64,000 nt of DNA from Paramacrobiotus metropolitanus (taxonomy: Eukaryota; Tardigrada; Eutardigrada; Parachela; Macrobiotidae). Where the stretch lies: assembly GCF_019649055.1 (NCBI RefSeq), contig NW_026570250.1, positions 310,001 through 374,000 on the forward strand, given 5' to 3'. The translations under genes and the position numbers were made by a program. Shown in pieces: positions 2,900 to 64,000 of this stretch (its first letter is position 1; every line of letters begins with the position of its first letter). The notes beneath the pieces were generated by a model. That model worked only from the letters and a program-made list of their open reading frames with translations, was not told the origin of the DNA and ran no database searches.

Positions 2900-3613
2900 A
2901 TGTCTGCGTTTAATTCGTACGTTGGAGGTTTTATGATTGCAGCATTTGTGGGTGTTGTGCAATGCCAAAACTTGGTGTCTGAAGACCGGCCGGTATCCCG
3001 ATTTTATCAGATAACATCCAGCGGTCCTTTTAATGTTACGATAGCGATGGGAAAAACCGAAGGACTAACAATAGAAGCCAGTCAAGAAATTATCGGGTAC
3101 GTCCAGACAGTGGTGGAAGGTTTAGCGCTTAACCTCCGCTTTGCTCCTGACCTTCCCACCAACATAAGCACCACTGACCCCATCAATATTTCCATCAACG
3201 CCAAGATAATCACGAATCTGGTCTCCAGTGGCACCGGTCCTATAACCTTCTCAACGCCGTGGAAAGCCAAAGATGTGCAGATTATTCTTAGCGGAACCGG
3301 TGACATCACTGCACCGGTTAATCTGAACAACGTCAACGCCGTTCTCAGTGGCACCGGCAACGTGAATATTAATGGAAAATGCAAGAACGTTAACATTTCC
3401 GCCAGTGGCATCGGTGCTTTCAATGGAGCTGATCTGCACGCGCAACAGGTAAATGTGGCCATATATGCGTCGTCCGTGGTCAGTATTTACGTGGAGAACG
3501 GACTGTCGGCATGGATCCCGGGATCCGGACAAGTTATCTATGGAGGCAGTCCCCAAGTTAATCAGCAAATTACCGGAAGTGGATCGGTTATGCGAGCGGA
3601 TCAGGTGGAATAG
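2900..3613 (+). CDS. Secreted GIN-domain (DUF2807-like) beta-helix protein, single exon
   Basis: A 237-residue uninterrupted reading frame with its own ATG and a signal peptide (residues about 1-23, hydrophobic core FMIAAFVGVV, cleavage near VQCQ). The mature part shows the hallmark of the GIN / putative auto-transporter adhesin head fold. An N-terminal segment of the type 'ITSSGPFNVTIAMG' is followed by repeated S-G-T/S-G-x-[IV] turns (SGTGPI, SGTGDI, SGTGNV, SGIGAF, GSGQVIYGG, GSGSV), roughly one per rung of a right-handed beta-helix. It is presumably extracellular, and its ligand is unknown. The family is abundant in Bacteroidetes and other bacteria. Here there is no intron, unlike every other confident gene in the window. 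It has several N-glycosylation sequons (NVT, NIS), consistent with eukaryotic secretion. Family assignment is by pattern recognition only. Confidence 0.8.
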   Translation: MSAFNSYVGGFMIAAFVGVVQCQNLVSEDRPVSRFYQITSSGPFNVTIAMGKTEGLTIEASQEIIGYVQTVVEGLALNLRFAPDLPTNISTTDPINISINAKIITNLVSSGTGPITFSTPWKAKDVQIILSGTGDITAPVNLNNVNAVLSGTGNVNINGKCKNVNISASGIGAFNGADLHAQQVNVAIYASSVVSIYVENGLSAWIPGSGQVIYGGSPQVNQQITGSGSVMRADQVE

Positions 3614-4881
3614 CGAACAAGCAAAATTTCCCGAAATACCTGACTTATAGGTGCTCTCATTTGCATGATGGTAGACGCTGCGGTTTTTTTTAAAGTTTTG
3701 TGTATTCAGCTTAATTTGTGCGCTGTTTAATCTAACAGCAAACTGCAACCCTGCTTGAAATATTTCGGTGTATTATTAAACACGTCAGCAATTAACGCCC
3801 GATATTGTATTATTTGATTATGAATCATTCTACGGCTCGAATCCACACAATCCTTTAAAGAAAATGTCCATAGAAATATGTCGCGCAGATTTTAATTATA
3901 ATCAAAATTATTTGTGCAAAAAATTTAATTATTATAACATTGTAAATGCAACAAAATCTATTTTTCTTATCGATTTATTGTTTAGTTTTATAATTTTTTA
4001 CAAAAACATCAAGGCAGATTGACGTGTTCACGACCCACAAGTGATTCTGTGAACTCATGTGAGAACTGATTTTTTGAGTTATTATGGATTTATGGTATGA
4101 ATCATAATTACCGTATCGCATCAGTTTCACTTTAGTTCGAATTCACTAAACTAGCGCGCACATTATTGCAGTCCCACACGTAAGTTGTCATACAAAGCTT
4201 TACGCATTGATTTCTTAAAGGTAACTTTTGTTATGAGCTAGAACTTCCATTATTTTCAGCATTGTAACTAGGTCATCAGATGACAAATAAGCTGCGCGAA
4301 AGCGAAAGATATACTTAAGTACAATATAAAGAAGGGGCCTGCAGTTATCTACCTGTGTTGGGAGCTAAAGCACAGGTAGCAATCAGGTGTTTAGAGGAGG
4401 CCTTTAGCTCAGTCGCTCTGTATCTTTAGACCACTTCAGAAGCCCTCGGTTGAATCGGCTTCTGGAATAACCGCGAAAATCTGGAAGGAAATAGCTATGC
4501 ATTCGACAGCCCGGCACCCCGATTGTGATTGGTCACCTGGTGCAAATTTCGTCTAGACATGGCAGATAGGAAAGACATCATTACCGCTCACAAATCCTAT
4601 AGACTGGCAATAGGAAGCGTCCCGCCTATTGTTTTACAACGGCTTCATGGCATACACGACAAAAGCGCGCAAAAAAGAAAGGTAATCTGCCTTTACGACT
4701 GTGCTTTCACGCAGAAATTATTATATAAGGCAGATACCTCAAATAAAGGCGATTTCTTATTTGGTTCCAACCAAGTTAACCAATTGACCATATTTCGTCT
4801 AGATAAAAATCCTGCATAAGCTGTTTCTATAATTTTACTTCGTACACTAACATTTAACTGAAAACTATTCCATCTGGTAAA
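3614..4881. other. Intergenic between the GIN-domain gene and CBM14 gene A
   Basis: AT-rich DNA including the 3' end of the GIN gene. An open frame at 4529-4819 has no recognisable domain, signal peptide or splice partner, and I do not call it a gene. A tRNA-like relic is listed separately. Confidence 0.5.
4398..4466 (+). repeat. tRNA-like relic
   Basis: TAGCTCAGTCG matches an RNA polymerase III A box. About 30 bases later CGGTTGAATCG resembles a B box that has lost one base, and it sits in a hairpin (AGAAGCC / GGCTTCT) where a T-arm would be. I could not fold a proper anticodon arm or acceptor stem, so this is at most a decayed tRNA or a SINE head. Confidence 0.25.
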
Positions 4882-7588
4882 ATGAAGTTGATGCTTATTT
4901 TGAGCCTTGCCGGTAAGAAATTTATCAAAGGGTAGAATACTCTGTATTAGCTGTTTTGTCGAACTCTATACACACAGCTGAACATAATATCGAAATTCAC
5001 TACTACCCTACTGTACCCTTTGCAATTTTTAATAGTAATGCCCTTTCTTTATTTAGCGCTGGCATATGCAAATCCAGCCAACTACGGCTTTTCATCGTAA
5101 GTCACAAAACATGAACGTTTAAGAAGCTGTTGTAAAAAGCAAATACGTAAAAACGAAAATGCATACGTAAAATACATACGTAAATAGGAAATTAACACAA
5201 CCGTTTGTTTATTATTATTAATCTATATTTTGTTATGAGTTTAATCAGAAATGTTAAAATTCAATTGTGTATGGCGTTGTGTATTCAGAAATCAGTGGAA
5301 TCCAGTATCGACCCAGGTTTTGGCTGGAAGTGCCCAACAGGCTTCGCAGTTTCCATTACAGAACCTCTACTACCAACAAGTGCAACCTTCTGGTCGTGAC
5401 CTGTACTCTGTCGTTCCGGTCCAGAATCAGTATTACCCGTACACCTCATACCCTTTCACTGCCAATGCCCGTGACCTTTCTGGTACCACCGGCACCGTTA
5501 CCGCGCGCCAGATGCATCAGCTGCCAGGATCAAATTTCCATCAGACGCCTTCCATGACAAGCTTTGCCGGTAGCGTGGAACCACCGGTCGGCCGCAACAT
5601 CCTGACCAACACCTTTACCGACAACACAGCGTTTCCCAACCGCAATTTCCCGGTACAGGATAAAACCATCATTCCAACCCTTTTGAGCGGCATCGACAAG
5701 GCTTCCCAAGATATCCGTACGAATCCTGATACAATCAAGGTTCTGGGGAAAGATGCCACCATCACCATGATTTCCCACGATGACGGTTCCAGCGTGCTGC
5801 TTATCAATGGAACGCATGGGAAGACGGCCGCACAAGATTACTTGAAATGGGTTGACCAGCAGCAAACCATCAATACTACCACCACCGGCACCACCGTCGG
5901 ACAAGACACCCAGACGATTTTTCAGTTTCCTACCAGCAACAACAACATTTGGACCAATACCGGTATGCACAAATAAAACCCTTGAATTAGATTGATTCAG
6001 ACTAATGCGGGAGCTTTAATAAACAGAGATCTTATTGTTTATTTTATAAATTGACACCCCAACAAATTATTTATAATATTTATTTATATAGAATGCTTAC
6101 AAGTTGATACAAGTTGGGAATGTTTTTTATATTTTGGTTTTTGTGAGTCATGACGCATTGACATTCTGAAAAGGCCAGAATATTATATTTATACGTCGTC
6201 GATAGCGTAGTCTTCGAGCGTAATTGTACGAGTACTATATAATTTTTTAAAATTTACCTATGAGACAAAAGTTTTTATGGCCGGAGTCTTGATAAAATGT
6301 TTATGACTTTATAATAGAAAAGCACATGTAATTACGATATTTGACATGAATTATACATTTACTGAGCTCGGTATAAATGGTATGCGATTTATAAAAGTTA
6401 CTGATAACTTACGTACCTATACCTATTAGCGAGACTCGTAAAGCATAACATGTACAACTGCGCTGAACGTGTAGTTCCCCCTGCAAAATATTTAATTCTA
6501 CATGTACAGGTGATGCTACGTGGAAACCCTCAGCCCAAAGCGTCATCAGTGCACTGACAACGCCAACGGACACATTCCAACCGGCAACCTCTAACACAGG
6601 ATTCCAATCAGCGCAGTTTGCCAACGAGAACATCAAGAACGTGGACACCAGCATCAACACGAACACCAAACCCATCTTCGCCGTCAGTGCCGGTCCCATC
6701 CGCAGTCCGTCTAATACCTGGACCGTCAATGCCAAACCCGCCAACGAATGGACTGTTAATGCGAAACCCGCCACCGAATGGAACGTTAATGCCAAACCCG
6801 CCACCGAATGGACCAATATCGACGCGACGACCAACACCGACATCACCAACAAGCCTGTTGCCGTTGTCGCTGTAGTTAAGCCTTCCGTTGCTACCGGAAC
6901 CAGCAGCACCTGGGATGCCACCGCAACAGCCGGCAATGGTAACCTTTGGGTGTTTGACTTCCTGGCACCTCCGGTGACCTCGGCCAAGTTGACGAAAATT
7001 CTTGCGGACGCCGTACCCGGCAAAGATTATCCGGCTCTGACGGAAATCCCCGCAACCTCCTTCACGTGTGCCTCGAAGAAGCGAGTGGGATTTTATGCCG
7101 ATGTGGAAACCAACTGCCAGGTGTTCCATCGCTGCGATGTGGATGGCGTCAAGACGGACTATCTGTGCCCGGAGAAAACCGTATTTAACCAAGTCACGTT
7201 GAACTGTGATTGGTGGTACAATGTTGATTGCGCTAAGTAAGTTTCGAAATCCCTGTACGTTCAAAAACGAATATAAAGAATATTATTTTATGTATAATTT
7301 TTCACAACACAACATACAAATATCAAGATCTTCTTAACCAGACTATAGCTGCCACGGAAGGTGTCAAATGTAGAATTTGCAGATTTTAAAGTGCTGAAGA
7401 CAGTTGTCGTATTTCTTTCTAGTTCACCGAAGTTTGAGCAGTTTGCCAACATCCGTTTGTACACTGACCAACCCCTTTTCGACACTCCTCCCAAGGAATA
7501 TGTTCCTAAATGGGTGAACTTGTATTATGCTCAGCTCCATAAGGACCGTGCGGACAACACCAAACGTTTTTCTTTCACAACTGTATAA
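4882..7588 (+). CDS. CBM14 gene A: secreted protein with one chitin-binding type-2 domain (5 exons)
   Basis: Exons 4882-4912, 5057-5096, 5289-5962, 6510-7236 and 7423-7588 join in phase into 545 residues. The first two exons give a classic signal peptide (MKLMLILSLAALAYA). The middle is Gln/Asn/Thr-rich and low in cysteine. It contains a 10-residue unit of the type xEWTVNAKPA repeated about 3.5 times, encoded at 6713-6817. Near the end of exon 4 is one complete CBM14 domain with six cysteines in the usual spacing (FTC...GFYADVETNC..FHRC...YLC...LNC...VDC). A 54-residue basic/aromatic tail follows. One C-terminal CBM14 domain behind a long linker resembles arthropod CPAP1-type cuticle proteins, so chitin binding in cuticle or gut lining is the likely role. 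It is the first of four same-strand CBM14 genes. Confidence 0.88.
6018..6023 (+). promoter_or_regulatory. Possible intronic poly(A) signal of gene A
   Basis: AATAAA lies 42 bases beyond an in-frame stop (5974-5976) reached if the exon 3 donor (G|GTATGC at 5962) is not used. Use of this site would give a short product without the chitin-binding domain. Confidence 0.35.
6713..6817 (+). repeat. In-frame 30-bp tandem repeat in gene A
   Basis: Three full 30-base units (6713-6742, 6743-6772, 6773-6802) and a half unit encode Trp-containing decapeptides ending NAKPA. Differences between units are mostly at third positions, so the peptide is better conserved than the DNA. Confidence 0.9.
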
Positions 7589-57762: not shown

Positions 57763-59580
57763 ATGATTATCTACAAGGATTACGTGACAGGTAAATATGT
57801 TGTCATGTTGTGACTGTCGCGATATGGCAACATCTTGTTAAATGTTTGATTAAACGGCAAAGAATTAAATTGAAATATTGCTAACCTATCATCCAATCCT
57901 CCAGCGCGAAATGTTATTTTGGTTTGAACAGATCCTTCGAAATTTTATGCTGCATTATAGATGACTCGAACGAAAACAGCTTTGAAATAAATCTCTGAAA
58001 CTTGTTGAGTTAGTGTTTTACACAATCACGAAAGTGAGCTCTACATTTTTGAAAATTTGAGCAGTGGTGGTGAATCCCTGTGGGTTTGCAGAGGAAATTC
58101 GGTCTTTGTACAGCGAAAGGGTGAATGGTTTTCACTTCACCTTGAACTAAAATTCGGAATTGTCTATTTTAAGCCTTTGACATTTGAATTTTTCACTGTC
58201 CTTTCGTTGCATATTATTTATAATTTATTGTAAGCTTGTTATTTATATTTAATTCGAGTTTTCCATTTTGTATCTTCGTTTATGTTAAAAGGATGTGCTT
58301 GTACAGCAAGTCACCAAGTGCTTGTACTTTTATCTGCCCTGCCTGTATCAGAGCTAGAAAAGTTTTGTTGAAATTGTTAATGATAGAAAAGTTGAAATTT
58401 CTTTTACTGAAATATTTAATTAATAAGGTCTAAGAAAATTAAAATTTGACTGATTTGGATGTTGGGCAAATGGCTTGTGAAGATTTTTTGTGATGACGTC
58501 ATGAATTATTACTGTTGCAGGCGATGAATTGTTCACCGACTCTTACAAAATGAAATTGGTTGATGGCGTGATCTACGAAGTGGAAGGCAAGGTGAGTCAT
58601 TTTTCACCGTTAAGATTGCTGTCGTCTTGTTGCACAAGGTTGCGAGGTTCGGTAGAAATTATTAACTGTCCATTCTAATGCTCAAGACGCCTGTGCTGGG
58701 CGCACTGAGTTTCGCTTTTGGACAAGATCGGTGCTACAGACTCTTGAGAAACTTGTCCAGATCACATTGCTTGACTAGTGGTACTAGTGTCTGACAGAAT
58801 TTCCCACTTCTTTTTTTGCGATTAAATGAATCTGTGAGGTTTTTTGGTTGGTCAACTTTTTGTCGGTGGTTGCAGTACATCCAGCGGAAGGTGGGCGACG
58901 TGGTGTTGGCTGGTGCGAATCCCTCGCAGGAGGAACAGGAGGAGGAATCCGAAGAAGGCACGGAATCAGGCATTGACGTCGTACTCAACCAGCGGCTGGT
59001 GGAGGCCAAATTCTACGAAAACAAGGAAGATTACACCAAGTACATCAAGGCATACATGAAATCGTAAGTTACCTACTCCACGGGCCTCCGTGATTGTGTT
59101 GTTTGTGTACAATTTGTTTTCGTTTGGTTTGCTTCGTTCTTTCGTTTACGTCTACTATTATTTTGGTTTGATAATGGGCGGTTTGTGAGTATTTAAATGT
59201 TGACACCTTGGTCTTTCATTTGCAGGCTCATGAAAAGGGTGGAGGAGACAAAGCCGGCTGAACTGGATGCATTCAAAAAGGGCGCACAGGAGGCTGTCAA
59301 AAGTCTTCTTGGCAGGCACGGAAACATGCAGTTTTTCATGGGTAAGTTTCTTGTAGAATTTGTCTTGCTTGGATAAATACCATTTAATGACGTCCGATGG
59401 CTGCGGTAGTTTTTGGCCTTGTACAGCACTTTTCGGATCATGAGTATTTCTCGATTTGCAGGCGAAAGCATGGATTCAGATAAAGGAATGGTGATTCCCG
59501 TGGAGTACAAGGATACCCCCACTGGCCAGGTTCCTACCCTCTACTTCTTCAAACACGGTCTGGTTGAGGAGAAGGTTTAA
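57763..59580 (+). CDS. TPT1: Translationally controlled tumour protein (TCTP; 5 exons)
   Basis: Exons 57763-57790, 58521-58591, 58876-59063, 59226-59341 and 59462-59580 give 173 residues, against a usual 172. The N-terminus MIIYKDYVTGDELFTDSYK is the family's standard start. Signature 1 is present as LAGANPSQEE, followed by the acidic flexible loop (EEQEEESEEGTESG). The helical hairpin (YTKYIKAYMKSLMKRVEE) and signature 2 (QFFMGESM...GMVIPVEYKD) follow, and the end is TLYFFKHGLVEEKV. TCTP is an abundant cytosolic calcium-binding growth and survival factor linked to translation and Rheb/TOR signalling. All structural elements are intact. The terminal Cys of vertebrate TCTP is absent, as is common in invertebrates. 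Confidence 0.97.
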
Positions 59581-60578
59581 ATGCAACGCTGGCTAATCAC
59601 CACCAGAAATTCGATCATTTCCATGCTTTTTATTTGCCGCTCGTTTTTTGATTAAGATTTAAAGCCACCGAAGTACCGTGCGTCTGCTTCATGAAGTTTC
59701 CGTAACATCTGCCGTTTCTTAACCTGTACGCTTTTTTAAACAAAAAATTTACCAGTTTTTCGACTTCAGTGCTGTGTCAGAGATCATGTACGGGATGAAG
59801 ATTAAAAGTCGATAACACGTGCTGTTATTTATGGTAAATTTTTCAGTATTATTAGACCACAATTCGAAATAATTTACCTTGTTATTGCGTTGTCGCGCAT
59901 ATACCGGTAACGGGAAACATGAGCGCTGTTACCGGTTACTTACCTCTATTCAGGAGTGTTCTCACAGAGACTGCGTAACAGAATTATAAATGTGCCTTTG
60001 TTGGCAGTTTCTGCTTTCGAGTTTGTTGTATTCGCCTTGAAGTTGATGTTGGAAACGTTTCCTAAGAAGCAACTGAACTCACAGAGTCCGCTTACGGTCA
60101 GATGGGTTGCTGAAATGAGTTAGGGTTCTGTTATTAGGAAAAACTGTTCTGTTATTAGGAATTAGACTGCAGGATGCGAAAAAGGGCAGCGTAATCAACA
60201 ACGGGCTGAAAATTTTTTGGACTGACGGGTTTCCAGAATAGTACTACAGATACGTCATGTGCTTGCAAGTTGCAATTTATTCTGTGCAGATGGACCTCAA
60301 CCAAAGTTGCCTTGTCGTATTTAAGAAGTACAACGAATGTTCACCCCTTGTATCCAACGCGGGTGCTTGTGCAAGGTAAGGATTAAATTGTTTTAATAAC
60401 TGCCAGCATAGCGATTATTTATATTTTCGGAAGGTTGCTGGTAAAAAGGTAGCTTTCAAAAATAAAGGGTATTATTGCGGATCAAAGCTTTATGTATTCA
60501 GTATTATGATTTGTTGAGGAGCGAAAATACAGCGCTGCTGCTCGTAGTTCACTACGCACATATTTGAGTTCATTGAAA
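59581..60578. other. Intergenic between TCTP and the astacin-like gene
   Basis: TCTP 3' UTR (an ATTAAA lies near 59801) and the upstream region of the astacin-like gene. No other feature is supported. Confidence 0.55.
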
Positions 60579-62566
60579 ATGAAGAAAATGAACTTTTATG
60601 AATGTGTTATCACTACGTTTCTTTCCTTTTCTATCTTTGTTAAGGTCAACGGATTGTATAACGTTGATATGCAGATGACAAAATGGGCAAAAAACGAAAT
60701 TCCTTTTTACATCGACAAAGGATATGGTAAGTACTCGTATCTCCACTAAGCCACTTTATTGTAGTTTGTACTGATTGTCCAGTGTCCATGCTGCGTGACC
60801 TTCCAGACATTTGTTCTTGCAGATGCTGAGCAAATCAAGCTCATCCGACTGGCGATGGTGAGAGTTATGTCGGAGGTGGATATGTGCGTTAACTTTGTTG
60901 AGGTGCCTGCAAATTCCCCGAAATATAAAATCCGGATAACCCCATTCAGCTCGGATGCTAACATACGGTAAAAATTACAGAATGAAATATCGTAATTCCC
61001 AAAAACCATTTTGACTGCGACTATACGACATTTAACCAATACACTGCATGTAAAAACCGCTATCTTGTGTAGTAGTGTAGCGGCTATTCACAGTTTTGAT
61101 TCGGTTTAATACTTTTATTGCTGTTAAATTCCAGGCCGCAAATCGCAAAGTATTGCCGTTCTTATGCCGGAAAGGTCATAGCTAACGAACGCAAAAACAA
61201 AATGGAACAGGACATGGTGCTCTCATACGGTCCGGGAGGATGCTTCGACGGGACTCTGCACTCACTGATGAAGTTTTTTGCTATCGCGCTTGGCAAACGG
61301 AACGAGCACCAAGGGAAACTGCGCGACCGCTTTCTGCAGACGATCCAGAATAACATTGTGCCCGGTAAAGAGCTTGTTTGGCACAGCTGCTGTTTGACCG
61401 GTAATTACAGAATTGGCGTGGTATTGTTTCAGAAATGCTTTCTGCCTACCGTGTGTACACAGACGACGAAGCTGGCACCAGTCACAGTTGCCAATACGAC
61501 TACTGTAGGTAATGGAAACGCAACGCAGTCTGCATTGAAGTACCGATACTTGGGAAACTAATACAAATTCAAAGCTCACAACTGGTGTTTTGTAACTTTA
61601 GTATTACCCACAATCAGCCATCCGACTTCGCGAAACCTGGTACCAATGCTTTCACTGTTCCATATCCTCCATTTTATATTCCCAAATTAGATCAGCTTTC
61701 GGCCTGTGATTGCATCGAAATTAAATGGATGTATGGATGTGATTATAACAGCTGCCGCAATTGTGAGTTAGCTAACTGCATATTCATCGTTTGCCTATCG
61801 GTAGTAACTTCGAAATAATGGTGAAAGCAGTTATTTTTAATTTGCTGATGATTCGGTTATCTAGTTGATTGCGCCACTGTGACGACTACTACCGCACCAT
61901 CGAACATATCCACCGTAGCAACTACGGTTTCATCGGATACTTCAGGTGGCCCCACAATCTGCTTCTCTACACCATCGGTAACAAGTGACACAACCATGAC
62001 CTTTACCACAACCTTGCCGTCGACGACGTCATCGCCCACAACACCGAGCTCTGCTGGTTCTCTTCCTTGCACGACGGTTGCTGTTCCAACTGGCACCACC
62101 CCTCCACCACCCCCACCAAACGGAGCTGCTGAATCAGATTTCTTCGGTAAGCGATCACCGAAAATATTATACATCGCGATCGCATTGTTCCAGTAAATTT
62201 GAAAATCAAGGACACTTCTTGCTTTTTAATTCTCCATAATGACCTTTTACTGTTTTTAAACGCTCACTATTTCGCTACGATAGGGATGCCGGACGCTCGG
62301 TCCCGATCGTTCACGGGAATGAATCACTTGCGAACTATTAATGCCGACCGGGATTTCGTGAAATGGGCGGATAACACTATTCGTTATTATCTGGATCCTT
62401 CCTACAGTATGTGAATGTTCCTGACAATGTTAATTACCGCAGAAATGAATTACAGTTTGGAGCTGTTTTTTTGTCTGACAGATTTTTCTTATTGGATTGT
62501 TTGTGTCCAGTACAATATCGGATCGGTGCATGTACATATATGAATCGCATATATTAGCGAATCGGT

Positions 62567-62600
<34 letters not shown>

Positions 62601-63993
62601 AAATATATAATATCGGATCGGTGTATGTATATAAAATACGCAACCGTAACACTTTCTTTTAGTTTGTTGAATCTGTCTTTCCCAGGTCCTACACAACAAG
62701 CGAAGATAAGAGACGCAATTTCCAGAGTTATGGGTGACTTGAACGGATTTATTCGATTTATCGAGGTGTCGCCGGCTGATCCATCGTACAAATTGAAAAT
62801 TACTCCAACGGAATATCCTGGGTAAATGTGGAAAATTTTTCCCTATTAGAGGCGATCGTGTACACTCTATAAACATCTGATCTTTGTCCAGCATACAAAA
62901 CAATGGAGGATGTCGGACATTCCCGGGAGTTTACTACCCGTTTGTGGCATCCAATCAAAAAGAACAGCGACTGATTTTAACTTCCGGAGGGAATGGGTGT
63001 TTAGAGGGAAATATTGGCAAGGTCATGAAGTTTTTCGTTATTGTGCTTGGTAGAAGGAATGAGCATCAACGTCCGGATCGCGATGATTTTATACAAGTCG
63101 ATTTTACCAAGATTCAGCCAGGTGAAATTTTTAAAATATTTTTTGCAGTTTGACTTTAAATGTCATCCGAATAATTAAACGACACCAATATGCGTATAAT
63201 TTGAAAAAAAAATTATTCCGGATTTTTGTTTTACAGAATGGCGGCAAGCATACGAAAAATACACAAGTGGTGTGAATGTGACGCTGTTGCGGTACCCTTA
63301 TGATTATTGCTCTATTACTCATAACGAAATGACAGCATATGCCGTAGCCGGAAACAATGCTTTCACAATTAAAAGCAACCAGATCAGCAGAATTCCCAGA
63401 ATGGACCGGTTGAGCGAATACGACTGCAAAATTATCTGCCTGGTTTACGGATGCCCGACAACCTCCTGCGGAACCTGTAAGGCCCGAGATATTTTTCAAA
63501 AAAATTTTGTAATTGTACACGTACACAATGTAACACAATTATTTTGTGGTTTCCAACAGTTACCTGTACGGATAACGGTATAAATGGACAGTCTCCGGTC
63601 CCGGGCGTTCCCACTGGTCAGACAGCACTTCCGGTCACCGTTAGCAATAACGGTACGATGACGACGGTGTGTTATACACTACCGCCCTCGTTATCGGATT
63701 CCACGTTCACGGCTACTACGTTGATTCCGTCGACTGTTGCGTCCACTGCTAGCACCGCTCTGGCTATCACAACCTGTCCTCCCAGTGGCCCGACTACTGT
63801 ATCTCCAGCCGGCTTTGATTCGTCGACTCCGTCAGCATCTTCTAGCACTTTCGTGAGGTAATACTCATAGTTATTTATTATTGGTACTTATGCATTTTTT
63901 ATCAGCAGTATTTTGTTCAAACCTTGTTGCGGTAGTTTTGAAGCTGACTCCTACAAATCGCTGGATTTATATGGCGCAAGCAGTTTTTGTTAA
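60579..63993 (+). CDS. Secreted double astacin-like protein, both modules without the zinc site (12 exons)
   Basis: Exons 60579-60726, 60823-60967, 61135-61364, 61433-61508, 61602-61762, 61865-62146, 62284-62406, 62686-62821, 62892-63121, 63237-63476, 63560-63857 and 63936-63993 give 708 residues. A signal peptide (residues 1-25) precedes an M12A-like module (IPFYIDKGY...CVNFVEV...GGCFDG...YDYCSITHN...LSACDC...MYGC), then a Thr/Ser/Pro mucin-like linker, then a second module with the same landmarks and a second Ser/Thr tail. Where astacins have HExxHxxGxxH, the modules read KFFAIALGKRN (from residue 144) and KFFVIVLGRRN. All three zinc histidines and the catalytic Glu are replaced, and the Met-turn SIMHY is SITHN. 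Proteolysis is therefore not expected. A binding, inhibitory or structural matrix role is inferred. Exon 6 could alternatively read through to a stop at 62196, giving a one-module form. Confidence 0.82.
62515..62640. repeat. (TA)n microsatellite flanked by a short direct repeat, in an intron of the astacin-like gene
   Basis: A TA-rich run (about 62566-62610) sits between two near-identical segments, ATATCGGATCGGTGCATGTA and ATATCGGATCGGTGTATGTA. It lies in the intron before exon 8. Confidence 0.85.
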
Positions 63994-64000
63994 TTTGCCA

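Follow-up and report, generated by a model that had tools for sequence, protein, structure and literature searches.

What becomes of a protease fold after its catalytic centre has been lost? This question is raised by a gene of the tardigrade Paramacrobiotus metropolitanus, located at the end of a 64,000-nucleotide stretch of contig NW_026570250.1 (positions 310,001 to 374,000; hereafter the window), which codes for two tandem modules of the astacin type (peptidase family M12A). A sequence-only reading of the window had claimed that both modules have lost the zinc site and carry near-identical replacements, and had suggested a secreted non-enzymatic family. From the gene model and the paralogues in the same genome, we consider it almost certain that the product is non-enzymatic and under selection, and fairly probable that it represents a secreted two-module pseudoprotease of a large zinc-less group of astacins, in which the modules probably serve for binding. 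On its predicted sequence it is classified as an M12A non-peptidase homologue (pseudoprotease) that is intact, with selection measured on its paralogues.

Lost zinc site in the two modules

The tandem astacin-like nature of the modules was borne out by the Pfam Astacin profile (PF01400), which matched module 1 with E 3.2e-14 and 53.5 bits and module 2 with E 2.1e-19 and 70.4 bits (cut-off 22.5), covering profile positions 1-188 and 1-189 of 189, i.e., above the curated cut-off across the domain. With the M12A peptidases such as crayfish astacin, meprins, BMP1/tolloid and the hatching enzymes, the modules share, in addition to the profile, the DR of RxDRDxF and the motifs YDY-x-S, LSxxD and YGC. 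They also keep the Glu that follows ligand position 3 and the majority of the four structural cysteines. The best solved relatives by sequence are the hatching-type enzymes 3vtg and 3lqb, followed by meprins. Unlike the active members, they lack the zinc ligands and the catalytic Glu, carry Thr in place of Met at the Met-turn, have lost the Tyr after the Met-turn His, and possess an extra, invariant Cys after the C-terminal Asp.

The canonical HExxHxxGxxH is replaced by KFFAIALGKRN in module 1 and by KFFVIVLGRRN in module 2. Both modules are thus without the three zinc histidines, the catalytic Glu (Phe instead) and the Met of the Met-turn, where SxMHY has turned into SITHN in both, in full agreement with the loss described before. 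In the phmmer alignment of module 2 with the structure of a choriolytic enzyme (3vtg), HELNHALGFQHE is aligned opposite KFFVIVLGRRNE. The coordinates previously given for the two motifs are exact, each motif being located inside a single 230-nt exon. The accompanying statement that the site as a whole had been replaced holds for the ligands and the catalytic Glu but not for every residue, since the Glu of NEH, which follows ligand 3, corresponds to the Glu that the canonical motif conserves. Neither a contiguous HExxH nor S[IVL]MH was found in the six frames of 60501-64000, and therefore a whole alternative exon cannot restore the zinc motif.

The two modules are identical at 87 of 209 positions, while within the former zinc motif they agree at 10 of 13 positions, which against this background gives P = 0.011 for a single alignment window and ranks as joint best of 205 such windows. 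With a single-window P no lower than this, the two modules do not by themselves prove selection. The claim that the replacements agree far better than chance, and hence look selected, did not hold for the pair alone but gained its support from the paralogue family described below. A recent origin of the pair by duplication of a single module was rejected, given the identity at 87 of 209 positions and the presence in the tree of nearer rows for each module.

The zinc-less paralogues, their tree and their selection

Relatives were gathered from the same genome (169.8 Mb, 533 contigs) by protein searches with zinc-less modules as seeds, and stretches were retrieved around the zinc-less candidates together with a selection of canonical matches. 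The motif was read in 129 astacin rows from 121 sequences, all of this genome, namely 62 zinc-less rows (51 loci, with the window counted as one), 55 rows with HExxHxxGxxH and 12 other degenerate rows. Because the sample was drawn from those searches, the ratio of rows should not be taken for that of the whole genome, where the Pfam profile matched astacins of all kinds at least 164 times, with 150 of 445 candidates scored. The motif region is complete in 59 of the 62 zinc-less rows, and in some cases, for instance at locus L021, two rows probably represent parts of a single module. Motif exons and C-terminal halves were paired automatically by position and order, and residues at exon ends may be intron letters. 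With prokaryote genomes and viral contigs, no relative was confirmed using a module-2 exon as query, in a search that finds close relatives only.

The replacements recur throughout the zinc-less group. His stands at ligand positions 1, 2 and 3 in 1/59, 3/62 and 0/62 rows, respectively, and the catalytic Glu in 0/59. Instead, the first ligand site is K or R in 49/59, the third is N, S or T in 50/62, and R is located at +9 in 48/62, where canonical rows mostly carry F or Y. The Glu at +11 is kept in 60/61, and Q occupies motif position -20 in 49/53. At the Met-turn, Thr was found in 50 of 53 zinc-less rows (R in two, and Q, probably intron sequence at an exon end, in one), as compared with M in 27, L in 7 and T in 2 of the 36 canonical rows read there. 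The Cys after the C-terminal Asp (DC) is present in all 50 zinc-less rows read there and in none of 35 canonical rows. Of the changes specific to the group, this Cys and the Thr of the Met-turn are the strongest. Two loci, L075 and L079, combine an intact HELMH zinc motif with Thr at the Met-turn (SVTHF and SVTHY), indicating that the change from M to T alone is no marker of zinc-site loss.

The cysteines of the group were examined in the same alignment. Both YDYC and DC are indeed present in the two window modules, although YDYC-SIT of module 1 is formed only after splicing. The disulfide proposed between them did not stand as a family trait. YDxC is found in only 26 of 52 zinc-less rows, with Asn in 16 of the other 26, and an obligate YDYC-DC bond was therefore rejected. 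Among the 48 rows that cover both columns, 23 carry DC without YDxC, so that DC in about half of the group must have another partner or none; the bond is possible in the half that includes both window modules and impossible in the rest. Of the structural cysteines, for which we take C42-C198 and C64-C84 to be the astacin numbering and pairing, all four are present in module 1, while module 2 lacks C42 (Phe). Across the group C84 is kept in 55/56 and C64 in 37/50 rows. The terminal Cys is present in all 39 zinc-less rows with an aligned residue; 50 rows reach the Tyr two columns earlier, and up to 11 have no residue aligned at the Cys column, by loss or by exon end. C64 is Ser in all 13 zinc-less rows that carry a Cys at motif position -3 and Cys in each of the remaining 37 in which both columns could be read. 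At alignment column 128, rows of the motif -3 Cys type have yet another Cys (8/8), which the others covered lack (0/6). An extra Cys in exon 2 also tends to go together with the motif -3 Cys (both in 9 rows, exon-2 Cys only in 2, neither in 13; Fisher 4e-5), a count tabulated by hand for the 24 rows of the YDxC type, leaving out the other half of the group. Such a pattern suggests that the disulfides around the former active-site helix have been rewired.

For the tree we used the 100 rows in which 85 or more of the 149 columns were filled, dropping 29 shorter rows, in an alignment from which the motif, Met-turn and DC columns had been removed; it was a quick search with support by the Shimodaira-Hasegawa-like approximate likelihood ratio test (SH-aLRT), without bootstrap or outgroup and rooted at the midpoint. 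A branch of length 1.11 (SH-aLRT 99) separates 54 zinc-less rows from 36 canonical rows, four HxxxH rows that lack the Glu only and six further degenerate rows. The non-enzymatic, secreted-looking family is larger than could be known from the window alone. The zinc-less side is assumed to be the derived one because ancestral astacin was active. Within the zinc-less group many forks are open, and neither window module falls in any starred set. The hypothesis that all 60 degenerate rows, among them L081 with loss of the third His alone, share one origin was only marginally rejected on the quick tree (44.9 log-likelihood units; approximately unbiased test, p 0.0435), and the zinc site was probably lost more than once.

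Selection was estimated by the method of Nei and Gojobori as the ratio of nonsynonymous to synonymous changes (dN/dS) for paralogue exon comparisons with dS between 0.2 and 1.0. In all 17 zinc-less comparisons the ratio is 0.03-0.36, for example 0.03 for L006/L008, 0.04 for L045/L046, 0.12 for L052/L053, 0.17 for L014/L055, 0.24 for L064/L071 and 0.36 for L051/L053; other pairs gave 0.01-0.36. The near-identical pair L028/L063 gave 2.24, but with 53 codons and half a synonymous change this value carries no information.

Other kinds of degenerate astacin were encountered outside the zinc-less group. Five loci, L034 (C50:1005.6k), L080 (C6:237.7k), L101 (C135:32.1k), L102 (C7:50.6k) and L074 (C56:502.9k), have the three zinc His but no catalytic Glu, with the motifs HHILH, HLLMH and HLVLH, and HGFLH in L074; they are possibly zinc-binding dead enzymes, and the pair L101/L102 showed a dN/dS of 0.14. 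Degraded zinc motifs were also found in L030, L032, L056, L076, L077, L124 and L081, of which L030 and L032 share the motif end LGFDYEH and gave a dN/dS of 0.16.

Gene model and protein architecture

The gene was modelled from splice signals and homology as 12 exons, all with GT-AG introns, consistent phases and an uninterrupted frame (Table 1). Eleven exons are located in the window (60579-63857), and the last one was found in a 10-kb stretch taken from the same genome, extending the gene 1,654 bases beyond the window end. Equivalent exons of the two modules have intron phases in common, and module 1 carries one extra intron, directly after YDYC.

Table 1. Predicted features of the two-module gene (window positions, except for exon 12)
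Feature	Position	Strand	Basis
Start codon with 25-aa N-terminus resembling a signal peptide, directly before the domain	60579-60653	+	Gene model, by eye
Exon 1, GT donor, ends in phase 1	60579-60726	+	
Exon 2, module 1, C42 equivalent in VDMCVNF	60823-60967	+	
Exon 3 (230 nt), with the former active site of module 1	61135-61364	+	
Former zinc motif of module 1, KFFAIALGKRNEH	61271-61309	+	Aligned with canonical motifs
Exon 4, module 1	61433-61508	+	
YDYC of module 1; SIT at former Met-turn follows intron 61509-61601	61495-61506	+	
Exon 5, C-terminus of module 1, LSACDC...YGC	61602-61762	+	
DC of module 1	61708-61713	+	
Exon 6, mucin-like linker 1	61865-62146	+	
Exon 7, start of module 2, FVKWADNTIRYYLD from 62355	62284-62406	+	
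Exon 8, module 2, Phe at C42 position	62686-62821	+	
Exon 9 (230 nt), with the former active site of module 2	62892-63121	+	
Former zinc motif of module 2, KFFVIVLGRRNEH	63028-63066	+	
Exon 10, C-terminal half of module 2	63237-63476	+	
YDYC-SIT (former Met-turn) of module 2	63299-63319	+	
DC of module 2	63422-63427	+	
Exon 11, Ser/Thr-rich	63560-63857	+	
Exon 12, rest of tail with five Q-rich amphipathic repeats	C30:374220-375654		

The predicted protein of 1167 aa begins with a hydrophobic, signal-like segment of 25 residues; the two modules follow, separated by a Thr/Ser/Pro linker, and a Ser/Thr-rich tail ends in PPPPEEW. The mucin-like stretches noticed before were confirmed by composition, linker 1 containing 30% T, 16% S and 16% P over a 90-residue stretch (S+T 46%), and the tail of 578 residues containing 20% S, 20% T and 9% P (S+T 40%). 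Both the signal peptide and the five repeats were judged by eye.

Active astacin peptidases carry a propeptide with an aspartate switch, and the Glu after the third ligand binds the mature N-terminus. The window gene model, with its predicted start, includes no propeptide, the signal-like segment being followed after ten residues by the domain start WAKNEIPFYID, and its N-terminal length is about that of mature astacins. A similar layout was found for an open reading frame (ORF) upstream of one L018 module (L018:7650-7886).

A gene for translationally controlled tumour protein (TCTP) is located directly upstream on the same strand (window 58530-59580; one exon ORF matches PF00838 with E 5.7e-14), and an AT microsatellite lies in the intron between exons 7 and 8 (62566-62612). 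Among the retrieved sequences, L002 contains a GDA1/CD39 nucleoside phosphatase exon (5706-6602, minus strand; PF01150, E 1.2e-28) and a possible small gene at 3444-4336, Cys-rich with a Ly6/uPAR-like look and a hydrophobic C-terminus by eye, for which the one exon ORF tested gave no Pfam match. Trehalose-phosphate synthase matches were found on three contigs of the genome, which agrees with the publication on the Paramacrobiotus sp. TYO assembly (PMC8277472), and an exact match to SL1, looked for as a sign of nematode origin, was absent.

Possible roles of the zinc-less modules

We propose that the modules would keep the astacin fold, in which the emptied zinc site is read as repacked, mostly with hydrophobic residues and the recurrent K/R, R and N/S/T, rather than converted into a new catalytic centre, and that they would work as binding modules that do not cut. 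In the window gene the two modules would be borne on a long Ser/Thr stalk, probably O-glycosylated, of which the C-terminal amphipathic repeats may self-associate. The protein would then be a multivalent part of an extracellular secretion or matrix, gripping substrates or partners of the kind cut by its active cousins. Secretion, the astacin fold and binding are predicted from sequence, and O-glycosylation from composition only; for the more specific arrangement of binding modules on a mucin-like stalk we regard the chances as evenly balanced.

Several observations weigh against this proposal. When alignment columns are ranked by conservation (entropy), ligand columns 1-3 stand only at 41, 81 and 47 of 141 and the former Glu column at 107, and mean pairwise identity in the motif exceeds that outside it less clearly among zinc-less rows (43% vs 30%) than among canonical rows (74% vs 40%); such moderate conservation favours repacking over a new ligand site that would be strictly conserved at precisely these positions. 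The 13 cysteine-swap rows form one supported clade, and the swap may be a single inherited event. The window modules have no close paralogue and dS saturates, so that the selection figures are those of paralogues. A structure model of an exon fragment (two window exons) was poor, with a mean predicted local distance difference test score of 43.7, and was left unused; it contained one helix (residues 41-52) besides two strands. The stalk may not be a family trait, as the final 259 tail residues are matched nowhere else in the genome. Finally, exon-1-like ORFs of two zinc-less members bear basic stretches before the domain (KRAPRQRIKKR in L006:2801-3067; RRKR in L009:5854-6078, minus strand), which may be processing sites of the furin type for a propeptide, and the missing propeptide is therefore not a general trait of the family.

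Among the alternatives, the one that survives best, though we consider it unlikely, is that the dead modules regulate active astacins, either by competing for their substrates or by binding the active members, as decoys or inhibitors. Many canonical astacins are encoded in the genome, as the 55 canonical rows sampled and the Pfam matches indicate, and a review of pseudopeptidases counts scaffolding and the regulation of active relatives among their roles (PMC11266112). The 62 paralogue rows and the mucin-like architecture of the window gene, however, point at least equally to a matrix or recognition role. Somewhat less likely still is a protein of purely structural function in matrix or mucus, in which the astacin fold would be a disulfide-bonded spacer or cross-linking knob without specific binding. 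The Ser/Thr content of linker 1 and tail, the five amphipathic repeats, the invariant new Cys and the altered cysteine pattern agree with such a function, but positions other than Cys are also kept, including R at +9 and Q at -20, and purifying selection is seen across the exons compared. Binding of another metal, or catalysis of another reaction through the replacement residues, is very improbable: although the replacements are non-random and the Glu is kept, no clustered set of His, Asp or Cys ligands exists at the site, and the former Glu and second-ligand columns are variable, often aliphatic or aromatic. A decaying pseudogene, or misjoined exons hiding a normal HExxH, was rejected as next to impossible in spite of the loss of every catalytic residue, in view of the intact frame over 12 exons, the lack of an HExxH in any frame of 60501-64000, the supported branch and the low dN/dS of paralogues, and none of the signs of decay that the sequence-only reading had named as speaking against itself was seen.

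The pseudoprotease proposed here resembles known pseudoenzymes among metallopeptidases, such as inactive ADAMs, in that the fold is kept and catalysis lost in an extracellular setting (PMC11266112); the review mentions astacins once, as metzincins. Unlike those, it belongs to dozens of paralogues in one lineage with diagnostic residues of their own and an altered cysteine pattern. Large lineage-specific copy numbers are also known from spider genomes, with orthogroups of 135, 59 and 54 astacin-like genes according to the passage at hand (PMC8693713), and therefore big astacin families are not new in themselves; that passage, however, treats the spider set as venom-type metalloproteases and mentions no dead members. 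CLCA proteins have zincin-like domains, in some members with substituted catalytic sites (PMC3650047), but they constitute a different family. The Ser/Thr/Pro-rich linker and the tail are reminiscent of secreted mucin-like proteins with folded domains, from which the window protein differs in that its folded domains are astacin-derived and the end of its tail is unmatched in the genome.

Among the papers listed by searches of the open-access literature, no title or abstract opening described such a dead astacin group. For tardigrades, passages of two papers refer to NAS metalloproteinases as induced by ultraviolet light or as found among glycoproteins, with no mention of dead members (PMC9145152, PMC12167791), and the main text of the Hypsibius/Ramazzottius genome paper contains no word beginning with astacin (PMC5531438).

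Enzyme families often include an isolated dead member, but a dead branch of dozens, with residues and a cysteine pattern of its own, is unusual. Tentatively, and with more doubt than confidence, we suggest that a tardigrade lineage, perhaps the whole phylum, may have made astacin into a secreted superfamily for recognition and scaffolding, a non-catalytic repertoire of extracellular binding in which more than 50 zinc-less modules expanded beside active astacins, part of them with rewired disulfides and at least one gene with a tandem pair on a mucin-like stalk. The dead branch offers a natural experiment on the reuse of a protease fold after loss of zinc, and adds a concrete family of predicted secreted proteins to those, extracellular and protective, that tardigrades are known to have evolved as lineage-specific sets.

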